Shown here piece after piece: positions 9,931-41,858 of a stretch of 41,858 bases of DNA. The position numbers were made by a program, and so were the translations under genes. Source of the DNA: Phormidium tenue FACHB-886 (lineage in GTDB: Bacteria > Cyanobacteriota > Cyanobacteriia > Elainellales > Elainellaceae). The notes beneath the pieces are model-generated. The model worked only from the letters and a program-made list of their open reading frames with translations, did not search any database and had not been told where the DNA came from. The stretch spans positions 1 to 41,858 of the forward strand of contig NZ_JACXWX010000040.1 in assembly GCF_014764505.1 (NCBI RefSeq), read 5' to 3'. How positions within the stretch are numbered: the first letter of the stretch is position 1; each line of letters opens with the position of its first letter.

Positions 9931-11859
9931 ATGACCCAACCTGCTTACCCAGACTACAGCAAAGTGCAATCGTTACCTGAGCTGTGGACGATCGCAACTC
10001 AAGCCTTTGCAAATATTCCAGCGGTGCATGATCCACACTCCAACCCAGTGCTAAAGTTCACTTATGCGGAGCTAGAGCAGCAGTTTCAGGAGTTTGCGGC
10101 AGGGTTGCAAGCGTTGGGCATTCAGGCAAACCCAGCTGAAGAAGTGCCGCCCCGAATTGGGTTGATTTCGGACAACAGCCCCCGCTGGCTGGTAGCCGAT
10201 CAGGGCATTATGCGATCGGGTGCAGTCAATGTGGTTCGCAGCTCGCAGGCAGATACTCAAGAGCTGCTGTATATTTTGCAAGATAGCGGGGCGATCGCGC
10301 TGGTGGTGGAAAATCTTGCCACCCTCAAGAAGCTGCATAGCGGCTTGGCAGAGTTGCCGATCCAGTTTGTGATTTTGCTTAGCGAAGAAGAACCGCCTGC
10401 CGACGTGTCGTTGAAAGTCCTTAAGTTTTCGCAGGTGTTGGAGCTGGGCAGAACCGTTGAACTGCGGCCCGTACGGCACACCCTGGACACGCTAGCAACG
10501 CTGATGTATACATCTGGTACTTCGGGGATGCCCAAGGGCGTAATGCTGACTCACGGCAATTTGGTATCTCAGGCGATCGCCGTTCGTGCTGTCATCCAGC
10601 CACCGCCGGGTGCGCGTGTCCTCAGCATCCTGCCCATCTGGCACTGCTACGAGCGATCGTTTGAGTACATGATCTTCTCGCTCGGCTGCACCCAAATTTA
10701 CACCAGCATTCGTCACGTCAAAGCCGACATTAAGCAGTACAAGCCAAACTACATGGTAGGGGTGCCGCGGCTGTGGGAGTCGATCTACGAAGGCATTCAG
10801 AAGCAGTTTCGCGACCAGCCCGCCAAGAAACAAAAGCTGGTGAAATTTTTCCTGGAGCAGAGCTTGCGCTATGTGCAGGCGCGGCGGTTGGCGCAGGGCT
10901 TAGATTTAAATAATCTAAATCCCTCCCCGCTCGATCGCGCCCTTGCAACCGCCAAAGCTACTGCTCTACTGCCTGTTCATCTGCTAGGCGACAAGCTGGT
11001 GTATCAGAAAGTACGGGAGGGAACGGGCGGTGAAATCCAATTTTTGGTCAGCGGTGGCGGATCGATCGCTGAATATTTAGAAGATTTCTTTGAGATTGTC
11101 GGCATTAACATTTTGGGTGGCTACGGGCTAACAGAAACCTCGCCTGTGACAAACGTTCGTCGTCCGGATCGCAACCTGCGGGGTGCAGATGGTCAGCCAT
11201 TTGGTGATGCACAGATCAAAATTGTCGATCCAGACAGCCGCCAGCCGCTGTCCATCGGTCGGCAAGGGCTGGTGCTGATTCGCGGCTCCCAGGTGATGAA
11301 AGGCTACTACAACAACCCAGAAGCCACTGCCAAGGCGATCGATCCCCAAGGCTGGTTTGATACGGGCGATTTGGGCGTGGTCACCGAATACGATGACCTG
11401 ATTATTACCGGACGCGCTAAGGACACGATCGTCCTAACTAATGGTGAAAACATCGAACCACAGCCGATCGAGGATGCCTGTTTGCGGAGTCCTTATGTGG
11501 ATCAGATCATGCTCGTAGGGCAAGACGAGCGAGCCTTAGGGGCGTTGATTGTGCCAAATCTGGAAGCTTTAAAGCAGTGGGCGGCAGCTCAGAACCTGTC
11601 ACTGCGGCTGCCTGACGAAGAAGCCGCAGCCAACGCGATCGGCTTGGATAGCAAACCGATCCAAGACCTCTTCCGCCAAGAGCTAGCCCGCGAAGTCAAA
11701 AATCGACCGGGCTACCGAGCCGACGATCAGATCAAATCTTTCCGTCTGCTCAGCGAACCCTTCACAATTGAGAATGGACTGCTGACCCAAACCCTGAAGA
11801 TCCGCCGTGCGGTAGTAACGGAACGCTATCGCGATATGATTAACGAGATGTTTGAATAG
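9931..11859 (+). CDS. aas: Long-chain acyl-[acyl-carrier-protein] synthetase (AMP-forming)
   Basis: ANL-superfamily enzyme that activates free fatty acids with ATP. In cyanobacteria the single long-chain homologue is known to load acyl-ACP and recycle membrane-derived fatty acids. The 642-residue protein has the AMP-binding P-loop LMYTSGTSGMPKGVMLTHGN at about residues 191-210, GGYGLTETSP, the hinge-proximal GWFDTGDLG, ITGRAKDTIVLTNGENIEP, and LLTQTLKIRR near the C-terminus with the catalytic-type Lys. The length is close to cyanobacterial Aas. It is translated from an AGGAG site. A long hairpin right after the stop separates it from ylqD-pdhC. ACP rather than CoA specificity is inferred from cyanobacterial precedent. 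Confidence 0.9.
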   Translation: MTQPAYPDYSKVQSLPELWTIATQAFANIPAVHDPHSNPVLKFTYAELEQQFQEFAAGLQALGIQANPAEEVPPRIGLISDNSPRWLVADQGIMRSGAVNVVRSSQADTQELLYILQDSGAIALVVENLATLKKLHSGLAELPIQFVILLSEEEPPADVSLKVLKFSQVLELGRTVELRPVRHTLDTLATLMYTSGTSGMPKGVMLTHGNLVSQAIAVRAVIQPPPGARVLSILPIWHCYERSFEYMIFSLGCTQIYTSIRHVKADIKQYKPNYMVGVPRLWESIYEGIQKQFRDQPAKKQKLVKFFLEQSLRYVQARRLAQGLDLNNLNPSPLDRALATAKATALLPVHLLGDKLVYQKVREGTGGEIQFLVSGGGSIAEYLEDFFEIVGINILGGYGLTETSPVTNVRRPDRNLRGADGQPFGDAQIKIVDPDSRQPLSIGRQGLVLIRGSQVMKGYYNNPEATAKAIDPQGWFDTGDLGVVTEYDDLIITGRAKDTIVLTNGENIEPQPIEDACLRSPYVDQIMLVGQDERALGALIVPNLEALKQWAAAQNLSLRLPDEEAAANAIGLDSKPIQDLFRQELAREVKNRPGYRADDQIKSFRLLSEPFTIENGLLTQTLKIRRAVVTERYRDMINEMFE

Positions 11860-11860
11860 A

Positions 11861-11895
11861 GTTATGAGGCGGGTGCAATGCGCCCGCCTCATAAC
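11861..11895. terminator. 16-bp stem, 3-base loop hairpin between aas and ylqD
   Basis: Positions 11861-11876 pair with 11880-11895 (arms starting GTTATGAGGCGGGTGC), perfect apart from one G-T pair, with loop AAT. It begins 2 bases after the aas stop and ends 29 bases before the ylqD ATG. There is no T run, so it may act as an mRNA stabiliser or processing barrier as much as a terminator. Confidence 0.65.
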
Positions 11896-11923
11896 CCAAA
11901 TTTACTCCTTACTCCTCGTGTTC

Positions 11924-12373
11924 ATGGAAGCTTCCAATCCCCATTTGCTCTTGAAACGCGCCGTCAATGTGAAGGCGATCGTCACCCCTCGTTGGAAAGA
12001 AGAGGTGCAGCAACAGCTTCAGGTGCAGATCAATCAACTCGATGCTCAGCTTCAGCAGTTAGAAATGCAGGCACAGCGAATGATGGCTGAAGTGCGGAAG
12101 CAGGGGCACGAATCTACCAATCCCATGGTGGCACAGCAAATCTCTAACATTGACGTGCAGGCGAACCAGAAGAAAAGCGAAATCCTGGAAAAGAAAAACC
12201 AGATTTTGCAACAGCTCCAGCAGGTGCAGCTTCTAGAAATGGAACAAGAAGTCCAGCAAGGACAAATCGAAGGCTTCTTCCGGGTAGAAACTGGAGACAA
12301 TTTGGTTCGTAAGATGCAGGTCGAAATTCTATTAAAAGACGGCGAAATCGTCGAAATTCGCGGAGATTTGTAG
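11924..12373 (+). CDS. YlqD family protein
   Basis: Predicted 149-residue cytosolic protein of the YlqD family, function unknown. The ATG at 11924 is chosen because the open frame upstream runs back through the aas-ylqD hairpin. The N-terminus LLLKRAVNVKAIVTPRWKEE is followed by a long Gln/Glu-rich coiled coil (about residues 22-113) and a small C-terminal beta segment (FFRVETGDNLVRKM, VEILLKDGEIVEIRG). The pdhC ATG follows 4 bases after the stop, so the two are almost certainly cotranscribed and possibly translationally coupled. Confidence 0.88.
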   Translation: MEASNPHLLLKRAVNVKAIVTPRWKEEVQQQLQVQINQLDAQLQQLEMQAQRMMAEVRKQGHESTNPMVAQQISNIDVQANQKKSEILEKKNQILQQLQQVQLLEMEQEVQQGQIEGFFRVETGDNLVRKMQVEILLKDGEIVEIRGDL

Positions 12374-22714: not shown

Positions 22715-23587
22715 GTGATAACTGCTGCCCCTGCAAATCGTCGATCTCGACCCACCGTTGGGCTATATGCAACGCTGCTGCCGCCTCTAGTAATAATGAC
22801 GCTGTTGTACTTCGTACCGATCGCCTTGCTGATTTCTTATAGCGTTTGGCGGCTGGAAGCATTTGATATTGTCAAAGAGTTTGGCTTCAGCAACTTTCGG
22901 ACAATTTTGACGAATGTTGCCTACCGGACGATTATTCTACGGACGGTAGCGACGGCGCTAGGTGTAACGTTGATCGATGTGGCGATCGCTTTGCCTCTAG
23001 GCTATTTTATTGGGCGCTATGGCGGACGCTACCGCACCTTGCTAACGCTGATGGTAATTCTGCCGCTTTGGTCAAGCTACCTGGTGCGTGTTTTTGCCTG
23101 GAAGATTATTCTGGGCTACAACGGGGTCTTGAATACAGCGCTGCTTTCGCTAGGTATCTTACAGCAGCCAAGCCAAATCTTTTTATACAACCAATTCTCA
23201 ACTGTACTGACATTTGTGCATGTTTGGCTGCCGTTCATGATTTTGCCGATCATCACTGCGTTTGAGCGATTGCCCAGTAGCCTGCTAGAAGCCTCGGCGG
23301 ATTTGAATGCGCGCCCTTGGACAACCTTTCGCCGCGTGGTGCTGCCGCTGGTGACTCCTGGTATCCTGGCAGGCTCGATCAACGTTTTTTCGCTGACAAT
23401 GGGTGATTTTATTACGCCTAGCTTGGTTGGCGGTCCAGGCGGCATCTTGCTGGGCAATGTAATCTCTTCCCAGTTCGGCGTGGCTTACAACTGGCCCCTA
23501 GGAGCCGCCTTTGCGCTGGTAGTTATGCTGATCGTATTTTTGGGTTTGGCGATCGTCCTTCGCCAAGGCGCTAGCGATAACCTGTGA
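22715..23587 (+). CDS. potB: PotB-like ABC transporter permease (polyamine type)
   Basis: Inner-membrane permease of the spermidine/putrescine ABC importer family. The 290-residue protein has six predicted helices, the first at about residues 18-38 (LLPPLVIMTLLYFVPIALLI). It contains the EAA loop that docks the ATPase: LPSSLLEASADLNARPWTTF with RRVVLPLVTPGI. The start is GTG at 22715, with an in-frame stop 24 bases upstream. No ATPase, second permease or substrate-binding gene adjoins it, so it must work with distant partners or be a remnant. The substrate is not proven. Confidence 0.85.
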   Translation: MITAAPANRRSRPTVGLYATLLPPLVIMTLLYFVPIALLISYSVWRLEAFDIVKEFGFSNFRTILTNVAYRTIILRTVATALGVTLIDVAIALPLGYFIGRYGGRYRTLLTLMVILPLWSSYLVRVFAWKIILGYNGVLNTALLSLGILQQPSQIFLYNQFSTVLTFVHVWLPFMILPIITAFERLPSSLLEASADLNARPWTTFRRVVLPLVTPGILAGSINVFSLTMGDFITPSLVGGPGGILLGNVISSQFGVAYNWPLGAAFALVVMLIVFLGLAIVLRQGASDNL

Positions 23588-23684
23588 GCGGTCATCCCTT
23601 AGACCGTTGATTTCTTCAATTCAGAAAGTTTAGAACATCTCTTTGTGATGCTTGCTGCCCCACTGAGAAGTAAAAAAAGAGAAG

Positions 23685-23771
23685 AAAAAACCCTGGCGGA
23701 AGCCAGGGATTCAGTCAGGGTGCATCTACCACTGCTTTCTTCCTGTAAGAAAGGGCAGCATCAGGGAAAAA
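23685..23771 (-). ncRNA. sRNA-like unit, copy 1 (weak promoter)
   Basis: On the minus strand this unit ends in a terminator (CCCTGGC-TTCC-GCCAGGG arms, 23691-23708, then six T). It shares with copy 2 the block AGGGTGCATCTACCA (plus-strand 23717-23731), a TCTTCC element, and CATCAGGGAAAAA (23759-23771). Between them it has its own stem, CTGCTTTCTT...AAGAAAGGGCAG. At the position where copy 2 has a -10 box, copy 1 has CTCCGT, so its promoter looks lost; TTAAAAAT further up is a weak alternative. It may be a decaying duplicate or be expressed by read-through. Confidence 0.5.
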
Positions 23772-23812
23772 CGGAGCGATTTTTAACAAAGTTTTTGATG
23801 ATGTGCAGTGCT

Positions 23813-23891
23813 ACGTGCCTCGATTAAAATTCTTTTTGTGTGAAAGCTGCACGTAGCGCGGCTTTTACACAAAAAGTTTGTCAAGGCATGT
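23813..23891. repeat. Foldback element, copy B
   Basis: A 19-base stem with two G-T pairs (23832-23850 / 23858-23876, loop ACGTAGC) is flanked by ACGTGCCT (23813-23820) and its near inverted complement AGGCATGT (23884-23891). The left end, ACGTGCCTCGATTAAAATT, and the stem (CTTTTTGTGTGAAAGC) align with the element at 16294-16376. It sits between the two sRNA-like units. Confidence 0.65.
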
Positions 23892-23973
23892 GCCTAGCGC
23901 TATAGCTGCCACAGCAGTTGAGGCAGGAGTAGGTCCAGCGTCGTGACGGCTATAGCACACTCAAAATTCCAAC

Positions 23974-24060
23974 AAAAAATCCCCAGCGGAACCGCCAGGG
24001 ATTTATTAGGGTGCATCTACCATTCCTCTCTTCCACCTCAAATGATGACATCAGGAAAAA
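23974..24060 (-). ncRNA. sRNA-like unit, copy 2, with own promoter and terminator
   Basis: Minus-strand unit of about 80 bases. It begins just after a good promoter (-10 TAGATT, 24064-24059) and ends in an 11-12 bp hairpin (plus-strand 23978-24003, CCGC/GCGG core) followed by six T. The shared block AGGGTGCATCTACCA is at plus-strand 24008-24022, preceded in the transcript by CCTGATG and GGAAGAGAGG. It contains no open frame of note. It lies 38 bases downstream of the DUF3598 stop codon, so a 3'-UTR origin is also possible. I cannot assign it to a named sRNA family (PsrR1, NsiR4, NsrR1, Yfr) from memory. Confidence 0.6.
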
Positions 24061-24086
24061 TCTACTGAAGAATCAGAAATTTGCAA
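24059..24086 (-). promoter_or_regulatory. Sigma70-type promoter of sRNA-like copy 2
   Basis: On the minus strand: -35 TTGCAA (24086-24081), 16-base spacer, -10 TAGATT (24064-24059). Each box matches 4 of 6 consensus positions. The predicted start near 24052 coincides with the start of the block conserved between the two copies. Confidence 0.5.
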
Positions 24087-24098
24087 TATGCGATCGCC

Positions 24099-24926
24099 TC
24101 ATGCCCGCTTTTCCGTAACCAATGTCAGGCTGCTCCAACCACCTTGGGCATCATAGCGGCGGATCATCCGCTGGCGCAGATTGTCTGCCAGCAGCCAGCC
24201 CGCTTCTAGTAAGAACGGCTGTCCTTTTGGAATAACCAGCGGTGTGTTTGCAGAAGCACCGTCGGGCAGCAGCAGCACCTGAATCGGATGGCTTTGCTCA
24301 AAGCGCAGCGTGGAGCCATCAATGGTTGCAGTTGAAGTCAAGGCAAGCTGAGGAGCAGTTAACTGTTGGATAAGACGATCGCCCTCTCGCCGTATGGAGA
24401 GCGTCGTGGCGTAGCGATCTGGGGTGCGCCAGTCCGGGTAGAGTGTAATGGCTTCGCCTTGCCAATCGCCCAAAAGCTGCTCTACTGTCAAGGGCGGACG
24501 AGCAGCCGCAGGCGTTCCTTGGCGATGTTCTCGGATTAAGGTAAAGCGATCGAGCTGGCTAGCAGTGTTAAACAATTGCACCAAACGGAGACGACGATCG
24601 CCTGCAATGAAGCCCAGCTCAGCACCAAACTCAGAAAAAGGGCCGAACTGGAGTGAGCCTTGAGAAAATGCCCCCGTCTCAAAGAAGAGGGTACTGCGGT
24701 TTAGAGTGCTGTACTCTAGCTCTTTGTTGTAGATGCGATCGCCTGCTGCCGAAAAATGCTGGACTGTTTGATGGACAGTCTGATTGTTGTGAAGTCCTTC
24801 TAGTGTCACTAAGCTGGGAATCTCTTCTTCAAGAACGCCATGAGGCGAGAGGCGTGCAAATGAGCCTTGCCAAGCGCCCAAGTTGCGCAGGAGACAGTCC
24901 CATTGGGAAGAGCTAGCTTGAGTCAT
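24099..24926 (-). CDS. DUF3598 family protein
   Basis: A 275-residue soluble protein of the DUF3598 family (lipocalin/calycin-like beta barrels, common in cyanobacteria), molecular function unknown. The first barrel starts WDCLLRNLGAWQGSFARLSP, a typical family N-terminus. The second starts LLGDWQGEAITLYPDW near residue 150. The C-terminus carries AGWLLADNLRQRMIRRYDAQGGWSSLTLV, quoted in part: LRQRMIRRYDAQG, as in this family. There is no signal peptide. No strong ribosome site is seen. It is immediately upstream of the sRNA-like unit on the same strand. Confidence 0.88.
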   Translation of the reverse strand: MTQASSSQWDCLLRNLGAWQGSFARLSPHGVLEEEIPSLVTLEGLHNNQTVHQTVQHFSAAGDRIYNKELEYSTLNRSTLFFETGAFSQGSLQFGPFSEFGAELGFIAGDRRLRLVQLFNTASQLDRFTLIREHRQGTPAAARPPLTVEQLLGDWQGEAITLYPDWRTPDRYATTLSIRREGDRLIQQLTAPQLALTSTATIDGSTLRFEQSHPIQVLLLPDGASANTPLVIPKGQPFLLEAGWLLADNLRQRMIRRYDAQGGWSSLTLVTEKRA

Positions 24927-38797: not shown

Positions 38798-39463
38798 TTA
38801 TTGGTCGGTTGCGCGTCGTTCTATTTCTCGTTTTAGGGCGACGATCGTGTCCCTCATTGTACTTTTATAAATATTGAAGAAAATACCACGGTCGGCTGCC
38901 GATCCTGGATCAACGGTTACACGATTCGTAATTAGAACCTGGTTAGGTGCAACGGGTTCCAATGTCCAAGTTCCCTGCAAAGACTTGATCTCTCCTTCAA
39001 CCAGACGAAAGGCGATCTGCGAGGGATAGCTTTCTGAGGCTGCAATCACAACGCGGCTCCTGTGGCTAAAGACCAAGATCTGAGTAACATTAATCTGCTC
39101 ATAGACCTTCTCGCTGCCTTGGTTTGTGAGGATCTGAGTAGAAACAATATTGGGCAAAAAGTCCTTGAAGTTACCGTAATCGGTCAATACGTTCCAAGTA
39201 GTGTCAACTGGTGCCGTCACAAGGATTCGCCCCGTATACTCTCCGCCCTCACCTTCCAGCACAACTTTTCCCTCTCGTAGAGTGGCTTGGTCTTGCTTCG
39301 GCAGTTGATCAACAGGGTTAACGGCTTGGGCAAGCAAAGGTGGACTGACCGCAGGCACAAGCGAAACGGCTAAACCAAGGGCGATCGCAGAGGCACAATT
39401 CCGCGACCATCTCTGGGAAAGGCTTAACTGGGGGATAATTCTCTTGTTGAAAAAATAAAGCAT
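38798..39463 (-). CDS. Exported SRPBCC family protein
   Basis: A 221-residue protein with a signal peptide (SAIALGLAVSLVPAVSPPLL, cleavage near AQA) and an SRPBCC domain: GRILVTAPVDTTWNVLTDYG, FKDFLPNIVSTQIL, then beta strands YEQINVTQILVF, IAFRLVEGEIKSLQGTWTLE and the C-terminal helix MRDTIVALKREIERR. The fold binds hydrophobic ligands; the target is unknown. It is a periplasmic or lumenal counterpart of the cytosolic family member at 15424. It is divergent from the TPP riboswitch-symporter unit and converges with lysR at a 14-base gap. Confidence 0.85.
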   Translation of the reverse strand: MLYFFNKRIIPQLSLSQRWSRNCASAIALGLAVSLVPAVSPPLLAQAVNPVDQLPKQDQATLREGKVVLEGEGGEYTGRILVTAPVDTTWNVLTDYGNFKDFLPNIVSTQILTNQGSEKVYEQINVTQILVFSHRSRVVIAASESYPSQIAFRLVEGEIKSLQGTWTLEPVAPNQVLITNRVTVDPGSAADRGIFFNIYKSTMRDTIVALKREIERRATDQ

Positions 39464-39496
39464 GATGAATCTTACCACTTTGCAAAATGGTTTTAG

Positions 39497-39505
39497 TGGT
39501 ACAAT
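39497..39505 (+). promoter_or_regulatory. Extended -10 promoter of the riboswitch unit
   Basis: TGGTACAAT is an extended -10 element (TG-n-TACAAT). TTGCAA at 39480-39485 is too close to be an ideal -35. Transcription would start near 39512, just before the riboswitch. Confidence 0.45.
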
Positions 39506-39514
39506 CGATTGCCT

Positions 39515-39600
39515 AAAGCTAGGGGTGCCTGTGCAATAGTCCAGGCTGAGATTACACCCTCGGAACCTGAGTCTGGGTAATACCAGCGAAGGGAAGCGTT
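39515..39600 (+). ncRNA. TPP riboswitch (THI element)
   Basis: The thiamine pyrophosphate aptamer consensus is complete and in order: AGGGGTGCC (39521-39529), GGCTGAGA (39544-39551) with ACACCC (39554-39559), GAACCTGA (39563-39570), GGGTAATACCAGCG (39575-39588) and AAGGGAAG (39589-39596). The P1 stem is closed by AAGC with GCGTT. It is on the strand of the downstream symporter and about 170 bases before its start codon. TPP binding normally lowers expression, so the transporter should be made when thiamine is short. Confidence 0.95.
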
Positions 39601-39629
39601 GATTGTGGTCTTCACGACGACGAGCGATC

Positions 39630-39762
39630 GCTTTTTGCCCTCAACCGCAAAAAGCAAAAGAAGTTGGAATTGGTGCACCCCTTGTCTGCGCTGATTTGTC
39701 AGCTCTGTTGCTCGATCACCCTTTGAACAACCTCTAGCATACAACACTCGATTGGAGGGGTT
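39630..39762 (+). promoter_or_regulatory. Candidate riboswitch expression platform
   Basis: GCTTTTTGC (39630-39638) pairs with GCAAAAAGC (39647-39655), but no T run follows, so it is not a standard terminator. ACCCCTT (39677-39683) can pair with GAGGGGT (39755-39761), covering the Shine-Dalgarno GGAGGGG (39754-39760) of the symporter. This would permit control at translation. The pairing was found by eye and alternatives are possible. Confidence 0.4.
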
Positions 39763-39769
39763 CGACACT

Positions 39770-41251
39770 ATGTCTACCGGAACGATCGCCTTGCTAGTCA
39801 CGCTGGTGACGGCAGGCTTGTTTGCGCTGCTAGGGCTGCTCCATGCTAGCAAGCAAACGATGAACATTGAAGAATTTGTGGTGAGCCGCAATCGTTTTGG
39901 CACAGGGATGTCGCTGGCAACGGTTGTAGCATCGGCAATGGGCATCTGGATTTTGTTTAGTCCGCCGCAGGTGGGTGCAACGAGCGGCATTGCTGGCGTT
40001 GTAGGCTATGCGCTAGGCTCGGCTGCGCCTATGCTGGTATTCACCAAAGCAGGGACACGTCTGCGCCAGCTCATGCCAAACGGACATTCCTTAAATGAAT
40101 TTGTGCTGTACCGCTTTGGTAATGTGATGTATTTACTAACGTTGGCAATCATTGTTTTTTACATGTTTGTTTACTTAGCAGCAGAGCTGACAGCGATCGC
40201 CAAAGCCGTAGAAATTATGGCAAACGTGCCGCTAATCTGGACAGCATTGGTTGTCATCACCGCCACGTTTATCTACACAACCTACGGCGGACTGAGCGCT
40301 ACGATTTTCACCGATGCGATTCAGTTTGCGGTAATCGTGCCGCTCTTGCTGGTTTGCTTTGGGGTAGCGCTGCTGGCGCTGGGCGGGTGGCAAACTGCTT
40401 TGCAGCCTGTGCAGCTCAAAACCCCCGAACTGCTGAATCTAGGCTATATAGACGGAATCAAGTTTGGGCTAACGCTGATGATTGCGATCGTGGCAGCAGA
40501 GATGTTTAACCAAAGCAACTGGCAGCGAATTTATGCCTGCCGTACAGATAAGACCGTCCAACGATCGTTTTTGGGTTCGGCGCTGGTGATTCCGCCGATC
40601 ATTCTGATTGCTGGTTCGCTCGGTCTTTTGGCGATGCATTTTGGCTTCAGCGACGATCGCGCCTTCTTCTCCCTGCTTCAAGAATTATCGTTGCCTCTCT
40701 GGTTCACATTGCTGGTGCTGGTGCTGTCACTGGCGCTGGTCATGAGTACGCTAGCAGCGTTACTGAATGGAATTGCCAGTGTTTTTACAATCGACTTGAT
40801 TCGGTTGTTTCCACGCATGCAGTCGAGCCGTTTACTGCGAACTTCGCGGGTGCTAACTGTGGCAATTGGAATTCCAGCAATTTTAATCGCCGCTCAAGGT
40901 TACGATGTGCTTTATTTATTCCTGCTGGCAGATCTCGTCTGTGCAGGTGCATTCTTCCCGGTCTTGTTTGGCTTTTACTCCAAGCGATTCACTGGAAATG
41001 CTGCCTTTTGGAGTGCAATTACTGGTATTGGTACAGGTTCACTATTTTTTCCAAAGCCAGATTTCACTGCTTGGCTAGAGATTCCGTTTGGAGGTGATTT
41101 ACTTGTTAGCTTCCTAACAGCAGTAGTAGTATCAGCAGCAATCGCCCTATTTTTCCACACTACTAGCACTGAATCCTTCAAATTTGAAGAACTTCGATCG
41201 CGTACTCGCACCTACGTTGAATTAGCAGATCAAACTGAACCTGCTCAATAG
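39770..41251 (+). CDS. Sodium:solute symporter (SSS family), TPP-riboswitch controlled, candidate thiamine/HMP transporter
   Basis: A 493-residue membrane protein with about 13 helices. It has SSS features: NIEEFVVSRNRFGTGMSLAT, VVASAMGIWILFSPP, a Na+-site-type region ELTAIAKAVEI, TYGGLSATIFTDAIQF (the SSS GGLxAVxxTD motif), and NQSNWQRIYACR. The ATG at 39770 has GGAGGGG at 9 bases. The TPP riboswitch upstream is the key functional clue: it implies import of thiamine or a precursor such as HMP. A THI-regulated SSS transporter named ThiV has been predicted in other organisms (recalled). The frame opens at a TTG at 39752, but the ATG start is better. Confidence 0.88.
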   Translation: MSTGTIALLVTLVTAGLFALLGLLHASKQTMNIEEFVVSRNRFGTGMSLATVVASAMGIWILFSPPQVGATSGIAGVVGYALGSAAPMLVFTKAGTRLRQLMPNGHSLNEFVLYRFGNVMYLLTLAIIVFYMFVYLAAELTAIAKAVEIMANVPLIWTALVVITATFIYTTYGGLSATIFTDAIQFAVIVPLLLVCFGVALLALGGWQTALQPVQLKTPELLNLGYIDGIKFGLTLMIAIVAAEMFNQSNWQRIYACRTDKTVQRSFLGSALVIPPIILIAGSLGLLAMHFGFSDDRAFFSLLQELSLPLWFTLLVLVLSLALVMSTLAALLNGIASVFTIDLIRLFPRMQSSRLLRTSRVLTVAIGIPAILIAAQGYDVLYLFLLADLVCAGAFFPVLFGFYSKRFTGNAAFWSAITGIGTGSLFFPKPDFTAWLEIPFGGDLLVSFLTAVVVSAAIALFFHTTSTESFKFEELRSRTRTYVELADQTEPAQ

Positions 41252-41292
41252 GCAGCGAAGTAGGGCACTTGAGCGAAATATGCGTGGTTCCT

Positions 41293-41484
41293 CTATTTCC
41301 TTGCGGTCGCCTCAAACTGGCGTCCCGTCTGGTTAAACAAACAGAGGAGTGAAAGCCCAATTCTGGGTCTATCGACAGCGAGCTTTTTGAAGAATAGCGT
41401 TGGGTGTTGCTCCTCAAACAGCTTCTGGATTGAGCTTGCGTTGAATAAAAGAATTGCATCTTCAACCAGTCCTTTTTGCGGTGT
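41293..41484 (-). pseudogene. Possible gene remnant, 63-codon open frame without ATG
   Basis: The minus strand is open from a stop at 41487 to a TAG at 41293 and reads with coding-like composition (QKLFEEQHPTLFFKKLAVD, LCLFNQTGRQFEATARK). It has no ATG and no recognised family. It may be the 3' remnant of a deleted gene, or chance. Confidence 0.3.
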
Positions 41485-41507
41485 TTATAGCAGCATATTT
41501 ATAGCAG
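41484..41507 (+). repeat. Direct repeat TTTATAGCAG x2
   Basis: TTTATAGCAG at 41484-41493 recurs at 41498-41507 (14-base period), followed by a short run of the tetramer ATCG. No function assigned. Confidence 0.5.
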
Positions 41508-41662
41508 TCGATCGATCGATAGGGGCAAGGGCTTAAGCCCCTTGTTGGTCAATCTTTGAATAGATGAGATCAATGCTCTGATCAAATATCTGCAATTACC
41601 CGCCTTCGGATATGTCTCTTGGTTGAAACTTGTGCGATCGCAGCTTCTAATTCAGCCAGGCT

Positions 41663-41720
41663 AAAGCAAAATCGGTTATTTGGAATGCTTTAAAGCATTC
41701 CAAATAACCGATTTTGCTTT
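41663..41720. terminator. 58-base perfect palindrome
   Basis: Two 29-base arms (41663-41691 and 41692-41720, arm starting AAAGCAAAATCGGTTATTTG) are perfect complements with no spacer. It ends 9 bases before the stop codon of the minus-strand gene at the window edge, so it may terminate that gene. As RNA it would form a stem of about 27 pairs; as DNA it could extrude a cruciform. Confidence 0.75.
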
Positions 41721-41729
41721 GAAGCTACG

Positions 41730-41858
<129 letters not shown>

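Follow-up and report, generated by a model that had tools for sequence, protein, structure and literature searches.

Which compound is carried by a transporter whose gene stands behind a TPP riboswitch? The question is raised by a locus near the end of a contig of Phormidium tenue FACHB-886, the whole 41,858 nt of which were analysed (this stretch is called the window). Window and contig end together, at 41858, and the visible neighbourhood stops there. An earlier, sequence-only reading described a complete THI-box aptamer upstream of one gene of the sodium:solute symporter (SSS) family, and proposed that the symporter carries thiamine or a pyrimidine precursor.

Aptamer, leader, and symporter in the window

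The Rfam search finds a single TPP aptamer in the whole window (Table 1). It spans the full length of the RF00059 model and, at 68.5 bits (E 1.5e-11), exceeds the gathering score of 54.3. Of the consensus pairs having letters at both sides, 21 out of 23 are canonical, and the element is predicted to bind TPP. The open reading frame downstream matches the PF00474 profile with 95 bits (curated cut-off 22.8; 6.1e-27). The description of an aptamer upstream of one SSS gene is thus confirmed, and the check with the Rfam covariance model that had been proposed for it gives a score above, not below, the threshold. The probable start of the symporter gene is the ATG at 39770, with the stop ending at 41251; the mechanical open reading frame opens at a TTG at 39752.

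Table 1. Features of the symporter unit, in window coordinates
Feature	Position	Strand	Basis
Extended -10 promoter element TGGTACAAT (predicted)	39497..39505	+	TGnTAnnnT conserved ahead of the aptamer
TPP riboswitch aptamer (THI element)	39511..39611	+	RF00059, 68.5 bits, model positions 1-105
Aptamer 5' arm GCTAGGGGT, proposed anti-anti-SD strand	39518..39526	+	partner of 39730-39738 in the minimum-energy free-leader fold
Anti-SD element ACCTCTAGC	39730..39738	+	partner of the aptamer 5' arm when the leader is free
Shine-Dalgarno (SD) GGAGGGG	39754..39760	+	9 nt ahead of ATG 39770
SSS-family symporter gene, predicted ThiV/SSSP-type HMP (pyrimidine) importer, 493 aa	39770..41251	+	PF00474, conserved TPP aptamer upstream

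In 58 of the 61 leaders scanned, the promoter motif TGnTAnnnT precedes the aptamer arm by no more than 32 nt; about 1.3 would be expected from mononucleotide shuffles. A consensus scan of 39300-41600 finds no two-hexamer sigma-70 site. A terminator scan finds no intrinsic terminator on the plus strand between aptamer and start codon, which disfavours transcriptional attenuation. The best reading of the leader is a translational off-switch, modelled by folding. At low TPP, the aptamer 5' arm GCUAGGGGU (39518-39526) would pair with the anti-Shine-Dalgarno element ACCUCUAGC (39730-39738), thereby leaving GGAGGGG open and allowing the symporter to be translated. At high TPP, the aptamer would be stabilised and would take up its 5' arm; the freed CCUCU (39731-39735) would then pair with GGAGG (39754-39758), and translation would drop.

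In the folding calculations, the segment 39518-39526 pairs with aptamer positions in the aptamer fold, and with 39730-39738 when the free leader adopts its minimum-energy structure. The probability that the SD core (39755-39758) is unpaired falls from 0.70-0.84 in the free ensemble to 0.27-0.34 when the aptamer is enforced, while the probability of pairing between CCTCT and GGAGG rises from 0.00 to 0.63-0.69. Contrary to the model, the SD core stays unpaired in the one minimum-energy structure obtained when the aptamer is enforced, and the closing pairs appear in the ensemble only. Another candidate for the off state, AACCTCT with AGGGGTT, was replaced, since the pairing probabilities give CCTCT with GGAGG. 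In many leaders of relatives, a CCTCTAGC-like element precedes the start codon, often by 24-51 nt. This element and the conserved aptamer arm GCTAGGGG are complementary, and in many leaders inspection also shows complementarity to the ribosome site. The best arm duplex of the window leader is matched by 3 of 100 shuffles. At a level of at most 5 in 100, this test is passed by 38 of 60 leaders and failed by 22, with L049 (just 17 nt after the aptamer), L085, L090, and L095 omitted. In translational TPP riboswitches of the E. coli thiM type, an anti-SD element alternatively pairs with an aptamer strand. The window leader shares this alternative pairing but differs from thiM in the position of its anti-SD element, 118 nt past the aptamer, and in the use of the 5' arm as pairing partner.

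The window symporter is the only PF00474 match in the 8.9-Mb source genome, and it is predicted to be coupled to sodium. Its predicted structural model is of modest confidence (mean pLDDT 60.9, pTM 0.66); the first 35 Foldseek matches of this model in the PDB are all SSS/SLC5 proteins (SGLT, CHT1, DUR3, NIS, SiaT, vSGLT, and SMCT1; best E 2.2e-9, query TM 0.56-0.66). By sequence, the top PDB matches are DUR3 urea transporters. Against the PutP (proline) model the protein reaches 56.8 bits, far below the equivalog cut-off of 515.5, and against PanF (pantothenate) 37.9 bits, far below 328.05. E. coli ActP (acetate) is separated from it in a tree, on very long branches. This quick tree of 52 rows holds 32 of the 62 cyanobacterial proteins (hand-picked) with haloarchaeal and Halomonas/Marinobacter homologues, and no SAR11 ThiV or algal SSSP. 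Its very long outer branches leave little to be read beyond one split, in which the cyanobacterial, haloarchaeal, and gammaproteobacterial proteins stand together (SH-aLRT 99), away from PutP, PanF, ActP, and a Sulfitobacter SSS protein. Clustering with proline, acetate, or pantothenate symporters, which the sequence-only reading had named as an outcome against itself, is therefore not what the scores and the tree display.

HMP and thiamin symporters are described as having in common a Tyr in TM2, an acidic residue in TM3, and a Phe plus a polar residue in TM6 (SiaT positions 78, 139, and 254; PMC11452348). The corresponding places were set by MAFFT and, for TM2 and TM6, match those given by a profile alignment to vSGLT, the SiaT numbering not being mapped directly. 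Y80 is found in 61/61, E139 in 61/61, and F246 in 62/62 cyanobacterial rows with a residue at the aligned place, two G261 fragments (L095, L096) being omitted. The Phe is followed by N (61 rows) or H (one row) and then by Q, giving F246-N247-Q248 in the window protein. All three features are present in the eight gammaproteobacterial rows, and the eight haloarchaeal rows display Tyr in eight, Glu in seven, and Phe in none, the F246 place being V, I, or L throughout. The aligned residues are L, G, and F in E. coli PutP, A, Q, and G in PanF, F, Q, and a gap in ActP, and Y, N, and G in the Sulfitobacter protein. Counting against the residue evidence, PutP also has the Phe and the Sulfitobacter protein the Tyr.

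Elsewhere in the window, two copies of NsiR1 (nitrogen stress-induced RNA 1) lie on the minus strand at 23682-23731 and 23972-24022 (45.5 and 51.2 bits, above the Rfam cut-off). They are about 290 nt apart and adjoin a DUF3598/BFA1-domain gene; a search of 23400-24150 at E<=0.01 reveals no third copy. Positions 41663-41720, which follow the symporter gene at a distance of about 410 nt, form a perfect, loop-free palindrome of two 29-nt arms, for which a MITE-like element, a terminator, and an assembly artefact are candidate origins.

Linkage to thiC among cyanobacterial genomes

Symporter homologues (E<=1e-60) occur in 63 of 291 sampled cyanobacterial genomes, about one in five. In 62 of them, the homologue is preceded by a co-oriented TPP aptamer (E<=0.01). 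The distance from aptamer to aligned protein start is 13-728 nt, some larger values reflecting partial alignments. The aptamer is above the Rfam cut-off in 56 of the 63 genomes and below it in six of the 62 (G024, G059, G103, G138, G042, and G166). The sole carrier without a linked aptamer, G202, has no TPP match anywhere in its genome. The linkage of the symporter with TPP aptamers and thiC is conserved; the search for TPP elements covered the symporter-bearing genomes, so that the counts come without a class-wide linkage background.

The gene for the pyrimidine synthase, thiC, lies downstream on the same strand in 34 of the 63 genomes, within the ~6 kb fetched. Symporter-bearing genomes harbour 53 thiC genes (the two pieces in G045 counted as one, a remnant in G125 omitted), 30 of which are preceded by an aptamer of their own at a distance of up to 700 nt. 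The 23 that lack one all come after the symporter gene, with a median gap of 92 nt (up to 410 nt in 22 cases, 1107 nt in one). Where thiC has no aptamer of its own, one leader probably serves both genes, and their arrangement suggests cotranscription. In the source genome, symporter and thiC are separate, each with its own aptamer; the genome holds two TPP elements, the second on contig C5 ahead of thiC. The remark that no other thiamine gene adjoins the symporter is thus correct for the visible contig up to 41858 but does not extend to those relatives in which thiC follows. Likewise, the label of a stand-alone salvage unit fits the source and similar genomes, whereas in many relatives the symporter leads a riboswitch-symporter-thiC cluster. 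In one genome, two neighbouring symporter matches, the second partial (query 160-482), lie in front of thiC (G269:C1:2676391-2678990).

A thiC match is absent from 9 of the 63 symporter-bearing genomes and from 11 of the 228 without a symporter. In G125, thiC is reduced to a 40-codon remnant with a stop, which makes it the tenth thiC-less genome; in G045 the gene is present in two pieces. With the remnant counted, 10/63 and 11/228 genomes lack thiC (Fisher p 0.005), in tests that ignore kinship, with remnants sought on the symporter side only, and with "symporter-free" defined at E<=1e-60, weaker homologues in the 11 thiC-less ones being outside its scope. Among good-quality genomes (>=90% complete, <=5% contaminated), the figures are 6/54 for symporter-bearing ones and 4/206 for the others (Fisher p 0.007), or 7/54 and 4/206 when the remnant is counted (p 0.002). 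Genera g7, g8, g10, and g95 comprise both thiC-less and thiC-bearing members, which argues for repeated thiC loss; loss is also seen in g3 and g9. Whether independent losses of thiC have occurred in several cyanobacterial lineages, which would live as HMP auxotrophs on HMP imported via the riboswitch-controlled symporter, we regard as evenly balanced.

Orphan aptamers are also observed. Locus L098 has a TPP aptamer at 1136-1235 (G138:C64:155135-155234) with no thiC in the next 4.7 kb, in a genome without a thiC match; it is possibly a scar of thiC loss. In locus L101, the second TPP aptamer of a thiC-less genome (12290-12386; G257:C269) is overlapped by a transposase-like open reading frame on the other strand (11636-12340), so named by inspection only. 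Speaking against the import reading, genome G198 (99% complete and 0% contaminated according to its listing) yields no match to thiC or to the symporter at the thresholds used.

Candidate substrates

A pyrimidine substrate is favoured by the identity of the conserved partner, since thiC provides the pyrimidine-forming step, and by the more frequent absence or decay of thiC among symporter-bearing genomes. It is also favoured by the thiamine genes that the thiC-less genomes keep (thiG, thiD, and thiE, with thiamine pyrophosphokinase, TPK, absent) and by the gene context of non-cyanobacterial relatives. The gene set was examined in 15 genomes, ten thiC-less and five controls. ThiG and a ThiD-type kinase are found in all ten thiC-less genomes and ThiE in nine, the miss being G261, a genome 77% complete. 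TPK (PF04263) is found in none of the 54 symporter-bearing genomes searched (out of 63, nine mostly lower-quality ones being omitted), whereas the same profile matches in 7 of 14 control genomes; ThiK-type thiamine kinase lay outside the scope of this search, and use of imported thiamine is for that reason less than fully excluded. As the source genome has thiC, pyrimidine import would be non-essential there.

Eight haloarchaeal plasmid homologues share 33-41% identity with the window protein, and a Marinobacter homologue 36%. A tenA-family gene directly precedes the symporter gene in five of the seven annotated haloarchaeal loci, with thiD alongside in one cluster and a thiamine-phosphate synthase gene in another; these tenA-SSS clusters are seen at plasmid loci L188, L189, L190, L193, and L103. 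Six of the eight homologues bear the annotation sodium:proline symporter, which is probably wrong for the SSS genes of the tenA clusters. The haloarchaeal riboswitch scan covered L103 only; a Halomonas plasmid homologue has a TPP aptamer upstream, and Haloferax and Sulfitobacter loci have no TPP match. A contig scan led by the Halomonas protein yields at least 583 relatives, 80 of which were kept, nearly all from Halomonadaceae but including two from Marinobacter and one from a Competibacteraceae MAG. Among the 19 of these 80 loci that were scanned, all of Halomonas/Marinobacter type, an above-cut-off TPP aptamer stands shortly before the gene in 16 but not in L155, L160, and the Marinobacter locus L176.

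From these comparisons, we consider it likely that the window harbours a TPP-repressed gene for an importer of the ThiV/SSSP type, with HMP or a related pyrimidine as its substrate. The original proposal of thiamine or a pyrimidine precursor is supported in this form, with an HMP-type pyrimidine predicted over thiamine.

Import of intact thiamine, with the TPP switch closing the gene when thiamine is plentiful, appears unlikely. It has a precedent in Dur31 of Candida, a fungal SSS thiamin transporter with a TPP riboswitch in several species (PMC5997356), and a TPP riboswitch by itself cannot separate thiamine from HMP. The lack of PF04263 TPK in every genome searched, ThiK apart, speaks against it, as do the retention in thiC-less genomes of thiG and thiE, which would be dispensable given intact thiamine, and the nature of the neighbours thiC and tenA, which are pyrimidine genes. 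It is decidedly unlikely that the main substrate is instead a breakdown pyrimidine (AmMP or FAMP) that TenA would help convert to HMP. The tenA-family gene ahead of most annotated haloarchaeal homologues would suit such a route, and 19 of the 20 cyanobacterial genomes tested, among them the source genome, have a PF03070 (TENA_THI-4, TenA-family) gene. However, thiC is the sole thiamine gene recognised, by sight, among neighbour clusters in at least four symporter loci, and HMP needs ThiD alone, a ThiD-type kinase being present in 15/15 genomes tested. An ordinary SSS transporter of proline, pantothenate, acetate, or sugar placed by chance behind a thiC-type leader would account for the superfamily membership, the low-scoring hits against PutP, PanF, and SGLT-type models or structures, and the proline annotation of haloarchaeal homologues, but is highly improbable given scores far under the PutP and PanF cut-offs, the tree, in which E. 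coli PutP, PanF, and ActP stand apart, and the aptamer upstream in all but one of the carriers.

An HMP-type importer would tie pyrimidine salvage by photosynthetic bacteria to a concrete candidate gene, and would predict the lineages able to use dissolved HMP. The symporter might also admit HMP antivitamins such as bacimethrin, as PMC12637900 speculates for ThiV. Cyanobacteria have been called prototrophs (PMC10881298) and virtually all of them net B1 synthesizers, yet Nostocales express the transporter gene omr1 (PMC12442306). HMP auxotrophy, if true, would overturn this usual view of cyanobacteria as B1 prototrophs, and some of them would take part in the vitamin economy as consumers.

Comparison with known TPP-controlled symporters

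The sequence-only reading held that SSS proteins are rarely assigned such a function. This needs refinement, as the role has been given before to ThiV of SAR11, to SSSP/SSSQ of algae, and to Dur31 of Candida; thiV behind a THI element is also known from metagenomes (PMC2211319). ThiV of SAR11 (Ca. Pelagibacter) is an SSS symporter behind a TPP riboswitch, for which HMP import has been proposed from cell uptake (PMC11452348). The window unit resembles it in protein family, in the riboswitch upstream, and in the three residue features at aligned places. SAR11 is without thiC, as are the ten symporter-bearing cyanobacterial genomes discussed above. The two differ in that the present unit is cyanobacterial, that most of its carriers still have thiC, and that its function is predicted from sequence, whereas that of SAR11 ThiV is proposed from uptake.

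SSSP/SSSQ of algae, bacteria, and haloarchaea are PF00474 proteins, many of them with TPP riboswitches (PMC4260697). They include Marinobacter members and a Halobacteria clade, in representatives of which that source detected no riboswitch. The window protein shares the PF00474 domain and aligns with the haloarchaeal and Marinobacter homologues described above, which are possibly other proteins than those of PMC4260697. It differs by the cluster with thiC, none being seen in the parts of that source drawn on here, and the main text of PMC4260697 contains no word starting with "cyanobacteri". Dur31 of Candida is an SSF-domain thiamin transporter with a TPP riboswitch in many yeasts (PMC5997356). 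It is unlike the window unit in being eukaryotic, controlled by splicing, and a carrier of thiamin, and the likeness is by description only; the DUR3 urea transporters found as top PDB sequence matches are distant relatives of Dur31.

In cyanobacteria, a survey of 14 genomes describes the TPP riboswitch as regulating thiC only and TPP-controlled thiamin transporters as absent (PMC3766115). The window aptamer belongs to the same family as the thiC riboswitch of that survey, and the source genome has a thiC-linked aptamer as well. Unlike in the survey, a second kind of target, an importer, is observed here in 63/291 genomes, in all but one behind an aptamer. Among titles and abstract starts in open-licence PubMed Central, no report of a TPP-controlled symporter in cyanobacteria was found. 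ThiV-type symporters are known elsewhere, and what is new is a predicted member of this kind in a phylum for which PMC3766115 had described TPP-controlled thiamin transporters as lacking.
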